Part shown: positions 3,731 to 10,460 of the stretch, piece by piece | Layout of the letters: each line of letters opens with the position of its first letter | Numbering within the stretch: the first letter of the stretch is position 1 | NCBI GenBank assembly: GCA_002256345.1 | Contig: NKIY01000003.1 | Span: forward strand, 248,001 to 312,000 | Source of the DNA: Bradyrhizobiaceae bacterium PARB1 | GTDB taxonomy: Bacteria; Pseudomonadota; Alphaproteobacteria; Rhizobiales; Xanthobacteraceae | Direction: 5' to 3' | DNA: 64,000 nucleotides | Program-made: the position numbers and the translations under genes | The notes under the pieces: generated by a model | Told to the model about the DNA's origin: nothing | What the model saw: only the letters and a program-made list of their open reading frames with translations | The model's database searches: none

Positions 3731-4039
3731 GGCGAATGCTGGCCGGTCGGCTGGTGATGCAGATGGCACGCCCGCCCCAGGCACGCCGCGATATCCCCTC
3801 GTCCCGCGATAGATGATGCGGTGCGGAAGGTCAATGAAAGCTGAGTGACAGAGCTGTAACACTTCGCGTTAAGCTTGATTTCGGCCCAAACATCGCCACT
3901 TTGTGATCGCGTTTCGCTATCAGCACCGGCTCCATCTTCGACCGATCCGGTACTGATTTTTCTTTGTTTGCGCATGATCTCGGCCGAAAATCGGTATCCA
4001 CCTTTTCGGGATCATGCGCGGGGAGCATCCACGCGCAAC
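3731..4039. other. Intergenic region between divergent genes
   Basis: This 309-bp gap separates the divergent hemolysin III and ycjX genes, so it should hold promoters for both. The only clear structure is the palindromic repeat at 3971-4020, which sits just before the ycjX start. I see no convincing small gene. An upstream ATG at 3875, in frame with ycjX, would force translation through the repeat and is unlikely to be used. Confidence 0.5.
3971..4020. repeat. GATCATGC palindromic repeat (rhizobial type), copy 1
   Basis: A 50-bp imperfect palindrome whose ends read cgcatgatc and gatcatgcg, with the core CGGTATCCAC in the middle. The second copy at 42888-42939 shares both the ends and the core. 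Elements of this form are scattered in large numbers through Bradyrhizobium-type genomes. Confidence 0.75.
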
Positions 4040-5503
4040 ATGGCCAGCCTGTCCGAACTCGTCGAAGAAGCCCGGCTGTCCGCGCGCGCATTGCTCGATT
4101 ATGGCGACGGCCTGTTCAATCCCACCGTGCGGCTAGGCGTCACAGGCCTGTCGCGCGCCGGTAAGACAGTCTTCATTACAGCGCTCGTCCACGGACTGAC
4201 GCGCGGCGGCCGGTTTCCCGTATTTGAATCGCTGGCGACCGGACGCATCGCAAAAGCGCGGCTCGCGCCGCAGCCGGACGATGCGGTGCCGCGCTTCGCC
4301 TATGAGGAGCATCTTGCGACCCTGATCGACGAGCGGCGCTGGCCGAACTCGACCACCGATATCAGCGAGCTGCGCCTCGTCATCGACTATCAGCGCAAGA
4401 GCGGCGCAGAACGCACGCTAACGCTGGATATCGTTGATTATCCCGGCGAGTGGTTGCTCGATCTGCCGCTGCTGAACAAGAGCTACGAGGAATGGTCGGC
4501 GGAAAGCCTTGCGCTGTCGCGGCAGGGCCCGCGCGCGGAGATCGCAGCGGACTTCCTCGCGCATCTCGCAACGCTCGCGCCCACCGCGCCGGAGAACGAG
4601 CCGTTCACACTGACGGCGGCACGACTGTTCACCGACTATCTGCGCGCCGGACGCGATGAACGCTTCGCCATGAGCCTGCTGCCGCCGGGCCGCTTCCTGA
4701 TGCCCGGGAATCTTGCGGGGTCGCCTGCCCTCACCTTCGCACCGCTCGATGTGGCCGCAGATGGCAGTGCGCCGGACGGATCGCTATGGGCGATGATGAA
4801 GCGGCGCTACGAGGCCTATAAGGACGTCGTCGTCCGGCCGTTCTATCGCGATCACTTCGCGCGGCTGGATCGGCAGATCGTGCTGGTCGACGCGCTCTCC
4901 GCTTTCAATGCCGGGCCGGAAGCGCTGCACGATCTCGAAGCGGCGCTGGCCGGCATCCTCGACAGTTTCCGCATCGGCCGCAGCTCGATCCTGAGCACGC
5001 TGTTCCGCCCGCGCGTCGATCGCATCCTGTTTGCGGCGACCAAGGCGGACCATTTGCATCATCTCAGCCATGACCGGCTGGAGGATGTCCTCAAGCAGAT
5101 CGTGCGCAAGGCGCTGGCGCGCTCGGAATTGTCGGGAGCCGCCGTCGATGTGGTCGCCATCGCCGCGGTGCGCGCCACCAAGGAAGCGCTGGTGCAGCGC
5201 GGGCGCGAAAAGCTGCCGTCGATCCTCGGTACGCCGGTCGCCGGCGAATCCGCCAATGGCGAAATCTTCGACGGCGAGACCGAAGTCGCGACCTTCCCCG
5301 GCGACCTGCCGAACAATCTCGATGGCCTGTTCGACGGCGGCGCCTTCACCGGCCTGTCCAGCGCCAGCGCCGACAAGGCCGATTACCGCTTCCTCAAATT
5401 CCGTCCGCCACAGCTCGTGCGCGAGGATGGCGCGGAGCCGGCGCTGCCTCACATCCGCCTCGACCGCGCGCTCCAGTTCCTGATCGGAGACCGCCTGCAA
5501 TGA
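4040..5503 (+). CDS. ycjX: YcjX family P-loop GTPase-like protein (DUF463)
   Basis: A 487-aa member of the YcjX/DUF463 family, a P-loop NTPase in the stress-responsive ycjXF pair of Proteobacteria. The Walker A motif GLSRAGKT is at residues 36-43. IVDYPGEW supplies a DxxG-like switch, and AATKADH looks like the guanine-specificity N/TKxD motif. The start ATG at 4040 (MASLSELVEE) is preferred: family members begin with this helix, and the longer frame runs through a palindromic repeat. The stop overlaps the start of the next gene by ATGA, so the two are translationally coupled. The family's role is poorly defined; envelope stress has been proposed. Confidence 0.9.
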   Translation: MASLSELVEEARLSARALLDYGDGLFNPTVRLGVTGLSRAGKTVFITALVHGLTRGGRFPVFESLATGRIAKARLAPQPDDAVPRFAYEEHLATLIDERRWPNSTTDISELRLVIDYQRKSGAERTLTLDIVDYPGEWLLDLPLLNKSYEEWSAESLALSRQGPRAEIAADFLAHLATLAPTAPENEPFTLTAARLFTDYLRAGRDERFAMSLLPPGRFLMPGNLAGSPALTFAPLDVAADGSAPDGSLWAMMKRRYEAYKDVVVRPFYRDHFARLDRQIVLVDALSAFNAGPEALHDLEAALAGILDSFRIGRSSILSTLFRPRVDRILFAATKADHLHHLSHDRLEDVLKQIVRKALARSELSGAAVDVVAIAAVRATKEALVQRGREKLPSILGTPVAGESANGEIFDGETEVATFPGDLPNNLDGLFDGGAFTGLSSASADKADYRFLKFRPPQLVREDGAEPALPHIRLDRALQFLIGDRLQ

Positions 5504-6525
5504 CCGACCGCACGCGCCGCCCGGCCACGTTCCGCCTCGACGATCCCCATGTCACCGTCATGGATGGCGACGACGATATTGGCCGCCTCGCCCGCGGCGC
5601 CATCCGCATCACGCCGGAGCCCGAGCCGCAATTGCCTGTCGCCATCGAGGAGCCGCTACGCCCCGCCCGCAAGGGCTTTGGCTGGGGCACGCTGTTCTGG
5701 AGTGCGCTTGGCGGCCTCGTGCTGCTCGGCACCGGCCTCGGCGTCGCCAATCTGATCCGCGACCTCTTCACCATCAATGACGGCCTCGGCTTTCTCGGTG
5801 TCGGCCTCGCTGCGCTGGTCGCGCTGGCACTCGCGGTAATCATCGCGCGCGAAGCGCTCGCCTTGATGCGCCTTGCCACCATCGAGAAACTGCATGCCCG
5901 CGCCATCGATGTGATCGCGAGCGACGATCGGAGCGAAAGCCGCGCGGTACTCGCCGATCTGCTCAAGCTCGCCCACGGCAATCCCCGCCTCGCCCGCGCA
6001 CGCACTGCACTGCAGGCCCATGCGGGCGAGATCATCGACGGCGCCGATCTGATCCGTCTCGCCGAACGCGAGCTGATGTCGCCGCTCGATATTGAGGCGC
6101 GCCGACTGGTCTCCGTCGCGGCACAGCGCGTGTCGGTCGTCACCGCGATATCGCCCCGCGCGCTGGTGGACATGCTGTTCGTCTTCGCCGCCGCGATCCG
6201 GCTGGTGCGACAACTGGCGAAACTCTATGGCGGGCGCCCCGGCGCGCTCGGCATGATCACGCTGCTCCGCCATGTCGTCAGCCATCTCGCCATCACCGGC
6301 GGTATGGCCGCCAGCGACAGCATGATTCAGCAGATGCTCGGCCACGGCATTGCGGCGAAGCTCTCGCAGCGCCTTGGCGAAGGCATTTTGAACGGCCTGC
6401 TCACGGCAAGGCTCGGTCTCGCAGCCATCGACGTGACACGGCCGCTACCCTTCACGGCCTTGCCGCGACCACAGCTCGCGGATCTCGCGAAGGATCTGGT
6501 GCGGAAGAAGGAAGACGAAACCTAG
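5500..6525 (+). CDS. ycjF: YcjF/DUF697 family membrane protein
   Basis: A 341-aa inner-membrane protein of the TIGR01620/DUF697 family, coupled by a 4-base ATGA overlap to ycjX, the usual partnership. Two hydrophobic helices lie at about residues 60-83 and 96-118. They are followed by the soluble alpha-helical C-terminal domain with the motif ALVDMLFVFAAAIRLVRQLAKLY, characteristic of the family. The TAG stop is the first triplet of the palindromic element that fills the gap to the convergent glycosyltransferase gene. Its molecular function is not established. Confidence 0.88.
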   Translation: MTDRTRRPATFRLDDPHVTVMDGDDDIGRLARGAIRITPEPEPQLPVAIEEPLRPARKGFGWGTLFWSALGGLVLLGTGLGVANLIRDLFTINDGLGFLGVGLAALVALALAVIIAREALALMRLATIEKLHARAIDVIASDDRSESRAVLADLLKLAHGNPRLARARTALQAHAGEIIDGADLIRLAERELMSPLDIEARRLVSVAAQRVSVVTAISPRALVDMLFVFAAAIRLVRQLAKLYGGRPGALGMITLLRHVVSHLAITGGMAASDSMIQQMLGHGIAAKLSQRLGEGILNGLLTARLGLAAIDVTRPLPFTALPRPQLADLAKDLVRKKEDET

Positions 6526-6606: not shown

Positions 6607-8170
6607 CGAGAAGCGCCAGCGACGGCGGGCGATAGAATGGCGTATCGGGCGCCGGATTGAGCTCCGGCGTCCAGCCGGTGATCTTGTCGATCTGGAAGGA
6701 ACGCATCGCTGTGCCACGCCACATGGTGTTGAACCGATCCAGCGGCTGCAGCGTCGCGCCGGCATTCAGCAACAACGCGCGATCCTGATCGTCCGGCTGC
6801 GCGATGTAGAGTCCGGGTTTGCCCTTGATGCGGTCCATGCCGGGATCGCGGAAGCCGAGAAAGCGCGCGCGCTCGTTGACCTGAATCACTGGCACGCTGT
6901 CCTTCAGGTGCCAGCGCAGCATCGCATAGACACGGTAGTTGGTCGTCGCAATCCAGGTGGCCCCGGTGGCCTGCATCTCCTGCACAGCGCGCGCCGCGAG
7001 GCCGTCATAGCCGGCCTCGGTGCCGATCGGATCGTTGCGGCCGAGCAAATTCCACGGCGCGGCCACAGAATAGAGGAAGGCGAGCACGACGAAGGGAATG
7101 CCGACGGCGATCGATGTGACGATCCAGCGATGGCTGGCGCGCACCGTCCTCGCCGACCAGCCATCCTCAACAAGGCGCGTGACATTGATCGCCGCCACCG
7201 CAATGGCCGGCGGCCACATGAACATCGGCCAAGTATCGCCGACGCGCAGCGTCAGCGAACGCCACAGGAAATAGGCGAACGGCACCAGCACGCTCAGCGA
7301 CAGCAGCAGCGAAACCGGATCGCGCCGACGGGTGCCACGCCAAAGCGTCAGCACGCAGGCGGAGACCAGCACCGGAAACAGAACGAAACCGACCTGCGCA
7401 AATTGCAGGCCGAAGAACTCGCCGAACGTGCCAAGCGAGAAGGCATGCGGCGCAGTTACACGCACGAACTGGAACTTGAACGACGCCCAGTCATGTGTCG
7501 CATTCCAGATCGTCACGGGGGACGACACGGCGAGCGCGACCAACACAGCGAGCCACGGATACGGACTTTTCAGCCAGCGCATCCGCCAGTCCGGCAACAG
7601 CATGAAGGCGAGAATGGCGGGGACAGTCAGCACCACCGTGAGCTTCGACAATAGCGCGAGGCCGCCGAACAGGCCGGCTGCCAGCCACCAGCGGCCGTCA
7701 TTACTTTCGGCAAGCCGCACCAACGACCACAGCATCGCCGTCGCGAACGGGATCATCGCGACATCGGGCGCCACCTTGGCCATCAGCAGGCCGTAATACA
7801 GCGCAGCTTCGGTCATCAGTACGGTGACCACCATCGCCCGCAAATCCCGGGTGACGCGACGGACGATATCCACCAGCAGCAACTGGGTGACCGCCAGCGC
7901 CACGATTCCGGTGAAACGGGCGCCGAAAGCAGTGTCGCCAAAGATTGCCGTGCCAGCACGGACGAACCAGGCGATCATCGGCGGATGATCGAGGAAGGAC
8001 AGCACGCTCTCCTTCGACCATGTCCAGTAATAGGCCTCGTCGGTGCGCAGCTCGAACATTCCGGCATAGATCAGCCGCATGACGGCGAGCGCCAGCAACA
8101 GCGCGCCCACGGCAGCCAGCGACCGGCGCGAAAGATTACGATTGAGGGGACCGGGAGCGAATGGCGTCAT
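6584..8170 (-). CDS. ArnT/PMT-like membrane glycosyltransferase (GT39/GT83 family)
   Basis: A 528-aa polytopic membrane protein. The first periplasmic loop after helix 1 carries RTDEAYYWTWS with the acidic pair that binds metal and the lipid-phosphate donor, followed by FLDHPPMIAWF, both hallmarks of the ArnT/PMT fold. About a dozen hydrophobic helices follow, then a soluble C-terminal domain (YRVYAMLRWHLKD... onward). Such enzymes move a sugar from an undecaprenyl-phosphate carrier to lipid A, protein or polysaccharide on the periplasmic side. No arn genes are nearby, so acceptor and sugar are unknown. The last residues are encoded by an intergenic repeat. The gene stands alone, divergent from the cyclase gene. 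Confidence 0.85.
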   Translation of the reverse strand: MTPFAPGPLNRNLSRRSLAAVGALLLALAVMRLIYAGMFELRTDEAYYWTWSKESVLSFLDHPPMIAWFVRAGTAIFGDTAFGARFTGIVALAVTQLLLVDIVRRVTRDLRAMVVTVLMTEAALYYGLLMAKVAPDVAMIPFATAMLWSLVRLAESNDGRWWLAAGLFGGLALLSKLTVVLTVPAILAFMLLPDWRMRWLKSPYPWLAVLVALAVSSPVTIWNATHDWASFKFQFVRVTAPHAFSLGTFGEFFGLQFAQVGFVLFPVLVSACVLTLWRGTRRRDPVSLLLSLSVLVPFAYFLWRSLTLRVGDTWPMFMWPPAIAVAAINVTRLVEDGWSARTVRASHRWIVTSIAVGIPFVVLAFLYSVAAPWNLLGRNDPIGTEAGYDGLAARAVQEMQATGATWIATTNYRVYAMLRWHLKDSVPVIQVNERARFLGFRDPGMDRIKGKPGLYIAQPDDQDRALLLNAGATLQPLDRFNTMWRGTAMRSFQIDKITGWTPELNPAPDTPFYRPPSLALLVGRMSAV

Positions 8171-8334: not shown

Positions 8335-10089
8335 ATGACCCGGACTGCCGTTCCGTTCCCCGCCTCGCATGATGCCGCCCCGTCCTGGCTGGCGGGCGTC
8401 GGCCTGCGCCAGATCCGGCTGACCTGCGCTCTGGTGTTGTTCACCTATCTGCTCAGCCACTTCGTCAATCACGCACTCGGCAATATCTCGATGGACGCCC
8501 TGCAAGCCGGCGTCGTCATTCATGCCGCGATCTGGCAGTTCTTCCCGGTCGCCGTGATTTTCTATACGTCCGCGCTGGTTCATACCTCGCTCGGCATCTG
8601 GGCACTGTATGAGCGCCGCCAGTTCCAGCGAAGGGCCGTCGAACCACTGCAGCTGGTGCTTGGCCTCAGCATTCCTGCACTGATCGTCGCCCATGTAGTG
8701 GCGGTGCGTCTTGGCGAAAATCTCTACGACATCGATCGCAGCTATCCGCAGGTGTTTGCCGCCTGGATCGGCTCGCCGCTGCGTCTGTGGGCAATGTATA
8801 CCGTGGTGCTCGTGGCGTGGATCCATGGATGCATCGGCCTGTATTTCTGGCTGCGACTGAAAACGTGGTTCAGGAGATCCGCGCCGTGGCTGCTCGCTGC
8901 GGCAGTGATACTCCCGACGCTGGCGCTGCTCGGTCTCTTCCAGGGGCAGCGCTTTGTCGCGGCCAATATCGCGGCGCCGGAATGGCAGGCAGCCAATCTC
9001 GGCACCGGCCAGGTCGGAACACGCGCACAACAGGATAGCTTGGCGGCCATCACCGACAATCTCCTGATCGGCTATGTCGTGCTGCTGCTGCTCGTTCTCG
9101 CTGCCCGCGGAGTCCGCCTCATCCTCGAGCGACGCGTCGGCATGATCAGTCTCGCTTACGGCAATGGACGCACCGTGCGCGTGCCTGTCGGGCTCAGCGT
9201 GCTCGAAGCAAGCCTGCGCCACAGGGTGCCGCATGCCAGCGTTTGCGGTGGCCGGGCGCGTTGCTCGACCTGTCGCATCCGCATCACCAGCGATCTCACA
9301 GCATTGCCGAGGCCGTCGCCGCGCGAGAGCTTCGTGCTGAGCCGGCTCGGCAGCGAGGGCGATCCGGCCATCAGGCTTGCCTGCCAGTTACATCCGGTCG
9401 CCGATATCGCCTTCGTGCAATTGCTGACGCCGCATGCGACCAGCGCCAATGTCCACGCCACCCATCCGGCGCGGATCGGCCAGGAGCGCTATCTGGCCTG
9501 CATGTTCATCGACATGCGGGGCTCCACCATGCTGGCGGAGAAGCGACTTCCTTACGACACCGTGTTCATCGTCAACCGCTTCCTCGCCGCCGTTTCGCAG
9601 GCGGTCGTCGCTTGTGGCGGCAAGCCGAACCAGTTCATTGGCGACGGCGAACTCGCGCTGTTCGGCCTGAACTGCGATCCGCAGACCGCTTGCCGCCAGG
9701 CACTGCGCGCGGCAGCGCTGATCGCGGACAATGTCGACGAGTTGAATCAAGCTTTACGGCACGATCTGCCGGAACCGCTGCGGTTCGGCATCGGCATTCA
9801 TGGCGGCGAGGTAATTGTCGGCGATATCGGTTATCGCGACAATATGGTGTTCACCGCGCTCGGCGATCCCGTGAATGTTGCTGCGCGATTGCAGGACATG
9901 ACCAAGAGCCTGTCCTGCGCAGCGATCGTCTCTGACGATGTGTTCGCTTCAGCACAGTTTGATGCAAATGGCTTCGCTGCTCATGACCTTGCGGTGCGTG
10001 GCCGCAGCGCGCCCATCAAGGTGCGCGCCATCACCGACACGCGGCAGCTTACGCACGATGCCGCGCAGCATGGCACCGCCGGCACTTGA
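8335..10089 (+). CDS. Membrane-anchored [2Fe-2S] ferredoxin-class III nucleotide cyclase fusion
   Basis: This 584-aa protein has three parts. Residues 26-262 form about six membrane helices, with histidines inside or at the ends of the first four (His42, 46, 63, 83, 120, 164), a pattern like diheme cytochrome b anchors of the succinate dehydrogenase type. Residues 269-365 are a plant/adrenodoxin-type ferredoxin with Cys304-x5-Cys310-x2-Cys313 and Cys350. Residues 384-565 are a class III cyclase domain with metal Asp393 and Asp437 and catalytic Asn514 and Arg518. The usual purine-selecting Lys is Gln433, and the partner position is Thr507, as in class IIIb. I infer a redox-sensing cAMP-type cyclase. 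The start at 8335 is chosen because the upstream frame is the palindromic repeat. Confidence 0.82.
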   Translation: MTRTAVPFPASHDAAPSWLAGVGLRQIRLTCALVLFTYLLSHFVNHALGNISMDALQAGVVIHAAIWQFFPVAVIFYTSALVHTSLGIWALYERRQFQRRAVEPLQLVLGLSIPALIVAHVVAVRLGENLYDIDRSYPQVFAAWIGSPLRLWAMYTVVLVAWIHGCIGLYFWLRLKTWFRRSAPWLLAAAVILPTLALLGLFQGQRFVAANIAAPEWQAANLGTGQVGTRAQQDSLAAITDNLLIGYVVLLLLVLAARGVRLILERRVGMISLAYGNGRTVRVPVGLSVLEASLRHRVPHASVCGGRARCSTCRIRITSDLTALPRPSPRESFVLSRLGSEGDPAIRLACQLHPVADIAFVQLLTPHATSANVHATHPARIGQERYLACMFIDMRGSTMLAEKRLPYDTVFIVNRFLAAVSQAVVACGGKPNQFIGDGELALFGLNCDPQTACRQALRAAALIADNVDELNQALRHDLPEPLRFGIGIHGGEVIVGDIGYRDNMVFTALGDPVNVAARLQDMTKSLSCAAIVSDDVFASAQFDANGFAAHDLAVRGRSAPIKVRAITDTRQLTHDAAQHGTAGT

Positions 10090-10214
10090 ACAGACATTCA
10101 GAAAATTCCTGCGAAACGACCTCGAACCCGGTCTGAAAACGGGGCGACGAATGGGCGATGGATCACAAACGATCCCGCAACCAGCGCATCGCGCATCACG
10201 CCAGGAGAACGACC

Positions 10215-10460
10215 ATGTTTCGCAAACTTGCTCTCGCAGCCGTCGCCGCAGCGTCGCTCGGTGCCGCCGCACTCATGCCCTCCGCCGCGTCCGCCCATGG
10301 CTGGGGCGGCTGGCACGGCTATCATCACCACCATCACGGCGGCTTCTACGGCCCCGCCTTCCGTGTCGGCTTCGTCGGCCCCGGCCCGGGTTGCTACGTC
10401 ACCCGGCGCGTGATGACGCCCCATGGCCTGCGCTGGCGGACCTTCAACCGCTGCTATTGA
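10215..10460 (+). CDS. Small secreted His/Gly-rich protein
   Basis: An 81-aa precursor. The signal peptide MFRKLALAAVAAASLG...ASA is followed by a His- and Gly-rich stretch (HGYHHHHHGG, about residues 34-43) and a C-terminal part with two cysteines (GPGCYVTRR ... FNRCY). The start at 10215 is preceded by AGGAG at a good distance; a longer frame upstream would hide the signal peptide. The His cluster suggests divalent-metal binding in the periplasm, but this is inference. Such short secreted proteins are frequent in this bacterial family and have no assigned function. A hairpin terminator follows the stop. Confidence 0.75.
   Translation: MFRKLALAAVAAASLGAAALMPSAASAHGWGGWHGYHHHHHGGFYGPAFRVGFVGPGPGCYVTRRVMTPHGLRWRTFNRCY

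Follow-up and report, generated by a model that had tools for sequence, protein, structure and literature searches.

A CyaC-type class III cyclase gene with a predicted di-haem membrane anchor and a ferredoxin domain in Bradyrhizobiaceae bacterium PARB1

The cyclase gene and its surroundings

We have analysed a stretch of 64,000 nucleotides from Bradyrhizobiaceae bacterium PARB1, here called the window, and found on its forward strand a gene for a CyaC-type cyclase. Its product carries six predicted membrane helices, followed in the same chain by a ferredoxin domain and then by a class III cyclase domain. The parts lie at the following window positions; the helix ranges were set by eye on hydropathy.

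8335..10089, + strand: CyaC-type cyclase gene, an open frame of 584 aa plus stop
8413..8481, + strand: membrane helix 1, residues 27-49, with H42 and H46
8530..8598, + strand: membrane helix 2, residues 66-88, with H83
8644..8706, + strand: membrane helix 3, residues 104-124, with H120
8782..8850, + strand: membrane helix 4, residues 150-172, with H164
8884..8946, + strand: membrane helix 5, residues 184-204
9049..9111, + strand: membrane helix 6, residues 239-259, leading into the cytosolic domains
9160..9396, + strand: ferredoxin (Fer2) domain, residues 276-354, with Cys 304, 310, 313 and 350 (Pfam, E 4.8e-7)
9460..10038, + strand: class III cyclase domain, residues 376-568, with metal Asp 393 and 437, Thr507, Asn514 and Arg518 (Pfam and PDB)

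An alternative in-frame ATG upstream at 8161 would give a protein of 642 aa. The start at 8335 is likely, because it gives an N-terminal length about equal to that of the nearest same-genus relative (L009). In Pfam, the Fer2 match and a Guanylate_cyc match at residues 388-527 (E 1.3e-8) both lie above the curated cut-offs, and the N-terminal membrane part has no match at all. Among PDB entries, the ferredoxin part matched ferredoxins, an adrenodoxin homologue and putidaredoxins. For the cyclase part the matches were adenylyl cyclases, with a photoactivated one as the best (E 2.7e-17). The catalytic metal Asp393 and Asp437 as well as Asn514 and Arg518 are all present. The gene is the only full-length copy in its genome, where seven other matches consist of the cyclase or the ferredoxin part alone and Guanylate_cyc domains number eight in total.

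The six membrane regions were grouped by eye from hydropathy peaks in the protein's own profile and in the family average; an extra lone peak in its own profile, at residues 410-428, falls within the cyclase domain. Over 147 aligned rows, the mean net charges of the predicted cytosolic segments (+2.8, +2.8, +2.9 and +3.8) and of the predicted periplasmic segments (-0.7, -0.1 and -1.1) obey the positive-inside rule, which places the C-terminal domains of the window protein in the cytosol. When the N-terminus is inside, the predicted topology turns H42 and H120 toward the outside, and H83 and H164 toward the cytosol. Hydropathy, Pfam and loop charges thus bear out the six helices, the ferredoxin and the class III cyclase that an earlier note on this DNA had described, and the histidines (42, 46, 63, 83, 120 and 164) and cysteines (304, 310, 313 and 350) are found where that note had placed them. 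In the translations of three relatives (L184, L185 and L186), a long Gly/Tyr/Ser-rich stretch separates helices 5 and 6.

Upstream of the cyclase gene lie a PMT_2 glycosyltransferase gene on the other strand and, on the same strand at 3875-6525, adjacent YcjX-like (DUF463) and DUF697 genes. We compared 81 stretches, namely 80 loci and the window; ORF families at the PMT_2 and DUF463/DUF697 places recur in about 25 of them, including Bradyrhizobium loci. As an operon partner we considered a family of same-strand downstream ORFs present in 19 of the 81 stretches, which come from Bradyrhizobium and one or more MAGs, and rejected it, since it is absent from the window. One representative of this family (L039, 8115-9530) is a molybdopterin oxidoreductase. 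The window itself has downstream, on the same strand at 10158-10460, a small ORF (100 aa) that begins with a hydrophobic segment, contains a His run (HHHHH) and has no Pfam match. Agrobacterium vitis CG78 has another Guanylate_cyc gene (L102, 7861-9261) immediately downstream, in the same orientation.

Matches at E <= 1e-60 occur in 81 of 297 genomes of the order, so the architecture is no chance find; a set of genomes drawn around a Rhizobium gave matches in 74 of 199. A scan of named genomes gave at least 80 loci, which are full-length relatives apart from fragments. The matches listed come from Bradyrhizobium, Rhodopseudomonas, Afipia, Methylobacterium, Agrobacterium, Rhizobium, Microvirga, Kiloniella, Reyranella and others, and also from MAGs labelled Rokubacteria, Nitrospinota and beta-proteobacteria. 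Among these listed matches, the closest named relative is a MAG protein (L038) with 80% identity, and S. meliloti CyaC does not appear by name. The protein of an R. palustris strain (L059), 59% identical to the window protein, has the same residues.

Conserved predicted ligands and the likeness of the anchor to SdhC

The predicted ligand residues were counted over the 147 aligned rows, 142 of which are distinct sequences. Four histidines are invariant in all 147 rows, and each aligns to a conserved His of SdhC.

8458..8460, + strand: H42, predicted outer (distal) haem ligand with H120
8581..8583, + strand: H83, predicted inner (proximal) haem ligand with H164
8692..8694, + strand: H120, predicted outer haem ligand
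8824..8826, + strand: H164, predicted inner haem ligand

Cys304, 310, 313 and 350 are likewise invariant (147/147), as are Asp393, Asp437 and Arg518, and Thr507 is kept in 145 rows. In place of Asn514, five rows carry His and L038 carries Arg; this Arg could be a sequencing error in the MAG or mark an inactive copy. The count leaves out L062, L068 and L077, which are cut or fragments, and L092. Its rows are not all independent, as L021/L146, L022/L148 and L023/L157 are the same contig places and L108/L159 are one genome's gene. Considering that the at least 80 loci were picked by patterns over three clustered Cys or the second catalytic motif, the patterns themselves account for part of the conservation at these places; the 71 rows outside the pattern scan have the same His and Cys.

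The earlier note had asked whether the six histidines pair up across the helices. Conservation singles out 42, 83, 120 and 164, whereas His is found in 141 of the 147 rows at the H46 position and in 44 at the H63 position. Accordingly, we reject six haem ligands, and the haem ligands of the window protein are likely the four invariant His. We also looked for relatives without a haem anchor among four proteins whose matches (in G071, G231, G032 and G094) start behind it. All four frames contain the anchor, and by eye the four His are present.

To compare the anchor with SdhC, a profile of 55 membrane domains was aligned with SdhC from the di-haem b558 family. The 15 SdhC proteins used came from genomes reached via the cyclase loci; in each stretch the frame with the highest hydrophobicity was taken. 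The profile-profile alignment spans 163-180 columns with a probability of 42-70%, depending on settings. In it, all four invariant His of the cyclases pair with His conserved in 15 of 15 SdhC rows, and two additional conserved SdhC His have no counterpart in the cyclase anchors. Among 200 block shuffles, none paired four His and the best, a single one, paired three; the real score was matched by three of the 200 and, in an earlier run, exceeded by one of 60. The reversed profile scored 15.8 against 35.3 for the real one. Rotations reached the real score in 16 of 22 cases and paired four His in 7 of 22, but they are uninformative as a control, because the true order is largely preserved in them.

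Searches against family models gave weaker results. TIGR02046 (sdhC_b558) was matched weakly by 20 of the 55 membrane domains (best E 1.4e-4), and the next family by 3 of 55. A Pfam scan of the 55 anchors found Sdh_cyt in two, and with a best E of 0.032 this family did no better than unrelated ones; the sole SdhC match of the membrane profile in the PDB was insignificant (E 0.73). In the reverse direction, an SdhC profile run over 12 cyclase-bearing genomes at E <= 0.001 recovered the genuine SdhC and two weak matches of short length; the cyclases were absent. The SdhC family gave 6 weak matches in 299 genomes of the phylum, none above the cut-off, and TIGR02046 had no match in the window's genome. 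The profile search for SdhC/cytochrome b and Fer2 domains that the earlier note had suggested found Fer2. The window's own anchor hit no SdhC family in either Pfam or NCBIfam at E <= 1, which leaves it below the curated TIGR02046 cut-off of 96 bits.

On the one hand, the window protein resembles di-haem SdhC/FrdC (TIGR02046, b558) in having four predicted ligand His in the same order in the first four helices. On the other hand, it differs from them by a sixth helix and by fused cytosolic domains. We consider that the anchor works like sdhC_b558, yet it is not classed as a member of TIGR02046, whose cut-off it does not reach. The outer pair H42/H120 and the inner pair H83/H164 presumably correspond, as ligand pairs, to the distal and proximal haem arrangement of Wolinella FrdC and Bacillus SdhC.

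The weak SdhC scores of the window's own anchor would also suit a membrane cyclase whose His do not bind haem and whose anchor senses something else. Against this, the four His are invariant over divergent rows at the SdhC ligand positions, and haems are reported, in passages of PMC10463352, for the relative CyaC; we regard a haem-free anchor as highly improbable. The di-haem, SdhC/FrdC-like reading that had been put forward for this locus agrees with the profile alignment, with the topology and with CyaC as it is described in part of that literature.

Relation to CyaC and the proposed redox mechanism

Cyclases of this kind are already described. Passages of an eLife 2016 paper (PMC4821796) group 30 class IIIb cyclases in which a ferredoxin stands between the membrane and catalytic domains, liken their anchors, with four spaced His, to the cytochrome b subunits of fumarate reductase/succinate dehydrogenase, and predict two haems for the 6TM-ferredoxin-cyclase architecture, with an example from R. 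palustris. Going by these passages, the window protein is like cluster 1 (Q132R4, Rhodopseudomonas palustris) in its part order, its four intramembrane His and its cytochrome-b-like anchor, and the comparison by description found no differences from this cluster.

For Sinorhizobium meliloti, passages of a BMC Microbiology 2023 paper (PMC10463352) state, crediting Wissig et al. 2019, that CyaC binds two haem b. According to the same passages, ubiquinone oxidises or reduces these haems and thereby affects cyclase activity, and quinone oxidation can activate the enzyme, in which a [2Fe-2S] cluster is marked. The di-haem regulation is repeated in passages of PMC9552081 and PMC13259868. By this description, the window protein shares with CyaC (SMc01818), the enzyme with two haem b and quinone redox input, a 6TM anchor, a [2Fe-2S] cluster and a class III cyclase. 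The window gene is a member of the CyaC-type (ferredoxin-associated 6TM class IIIb) cyclases.

We therefore hold it very probable that the gene encodes a redox-sensing class III nucleotide cyclase of the CyaC type, with two b haems, a [2Fe-2S] cluster and quinone input. As the alignment and topology suggest, the two b haems would sit in the first four of the six helices, as in di-haem SdhC/FrdC, the outer one held by H42 and H120 close to the periplasm and the inner one by H83 and H164 close to the cytosol. Electron exchange between the haems and the quinone pool, which is reported for S. meliloti CyaC, would take place here too, and the redox state of the haems may pass to the [2Fe-2S] domain beneath the membrane. 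The activity of the dimeric cyclase would be altered by this redox state, oxidation being the activating condition in S. meliloti, and the cyclic nucleotide output would answer the respiratory state of the cell.

The earlier note had proposed such a path from quinone or haem through [2Fe-2S] to the cyclase, and the proposal agrees with the tests run and with the described relative CyaC. Its statement that the signal had not been described does not hold, because passages of PMC4821796 already predict two haems and those of PMC10463352 describe a quinone-dependent, di-haem-B CyaC with [2Fe-2S]; considering that the same architecture and CyaC appear in these two papers, the mechanism was already in print.

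For the step between haem and cluster, the literature on CyaC-type cyclases that we consulted gave no description of electron transfer from haem to Fe-S or of an action of the cluster on the cyclase. This leaves room for another arrangement, in which the haems sense the quinone pool, the ferredoxin forms a second, independent input and the cyclase integrates both. The independent input could come from a soluble electron donor, or consist in cluster loss caused by oxygen or by a shortage of iron. In favour of this arrangement, the Fer2 domain resembles electron carriers of the adrenodoxin and putidaredoxin type in its PDB matches, and such carriers have soluble partners. However, anchor and Fer2 co-occur in the relatives read, including the four whose matches start behind the anchor, which fits one path without proving it. 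We consider two separate inputs possible but rather unlikely. If the gene does encode a redox-sensing CyaC-type cyclase, many alpha-proteobacteria, and MAGs labelled otherwise, retain the quinone-sensing haem/Fe-S cyclase known from a single rhizobium together with the full set of its cofactor ligands.

The base-selecting site and the cyclase product

When aligned to the photoactivated adenylyl cyclase, the window protein shows an unusual pair at the site that selects the base.

9628..9633, + strand: Asn432-Gln433, with Gln433 at the position of the adenine-selecting Lys of adenylyl cyclases

Thus, of the adenine-selecting Lys/Thr pair, Thr507 is present and Lys is replaced by Gln433. At residues 432-433, the 147 rows carry Asp-Lys in 86 cases, Asn-Gln in 59 and Thr-Asn in 2, and Gln433, being common to 59 rows, is no bar to CyaC-type membership. 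We built a tree by a quick method from 85 rows, after thinning at 75% identity, with L075 left out and columns 432-433 removed. On this tree Asn-Gln needs two changes, although a single origin is not excluded. One Asn-Gln branch holds Bradyrhizobium, Rhodopseudomonas, Methylobacterium and the window protein, and the other holds MAGs of Rokubacteria, Nitrospinota and beta-proteobacteria.

The product of the window cyclase is probably cAMP, but because of Gln433 in place of Lys the base choice of its branch is not secured. The Asn-Gln branch might instead consist of redox-sensing guanylate or mixed cyclases, which would make cGMP, or cAMP and cGMP together. This would suit the presence of Gln instead of the adenine-selecting Lys throughout the branch and the two changes on the tree, and Rv0386 of M. 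tuberculosis, which has Gln at the same site, reportedly shows relaxed specificity. Guanylate cyclases, however, carry a guanine-selecting Glu, which is absent from the Asn-Gln branch, and Thr507 is kept as in the adenylate cyclases of the family. Accordingly, we consider a guanylate or mixed activity unlikely; if it were true, one di-haem/Fe-S quinone sensor would be coupled to two different second messengers. A literature search on Gln at the base-selecting site found nothing usable, and in PMC3420878, where Bradyrhizobium cyclases were sought, the mentions of cyclase concern a two-hybrid assay. The Lys/Gln split offers a natural comparison for the determinants of base choice in CyaC-type cyclases.

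The two kinds of site also differ in their neighbours. According to passages of PMC10463352, S. meliloti cyaC adjoins cycR (TetR) and a LysR gene. Unlike this described arrangement, a scan of five ORFs next to the window gene gave neither cycR nor LysR, with no TetR at E <= 0.01. A cyclase gene without a CycR neighbour raises the question of how its signal is read. A TetR neighbour is found in the orthologues L173, L174, L176, L177 and L179, which were taken as Sinorhizobium-like by their neighbours and are 34-35% identical to the window protein; L174 has a LysR neighbour as well. All five carry Asp-Lys, whereas the window protein carries Asn-Gln.
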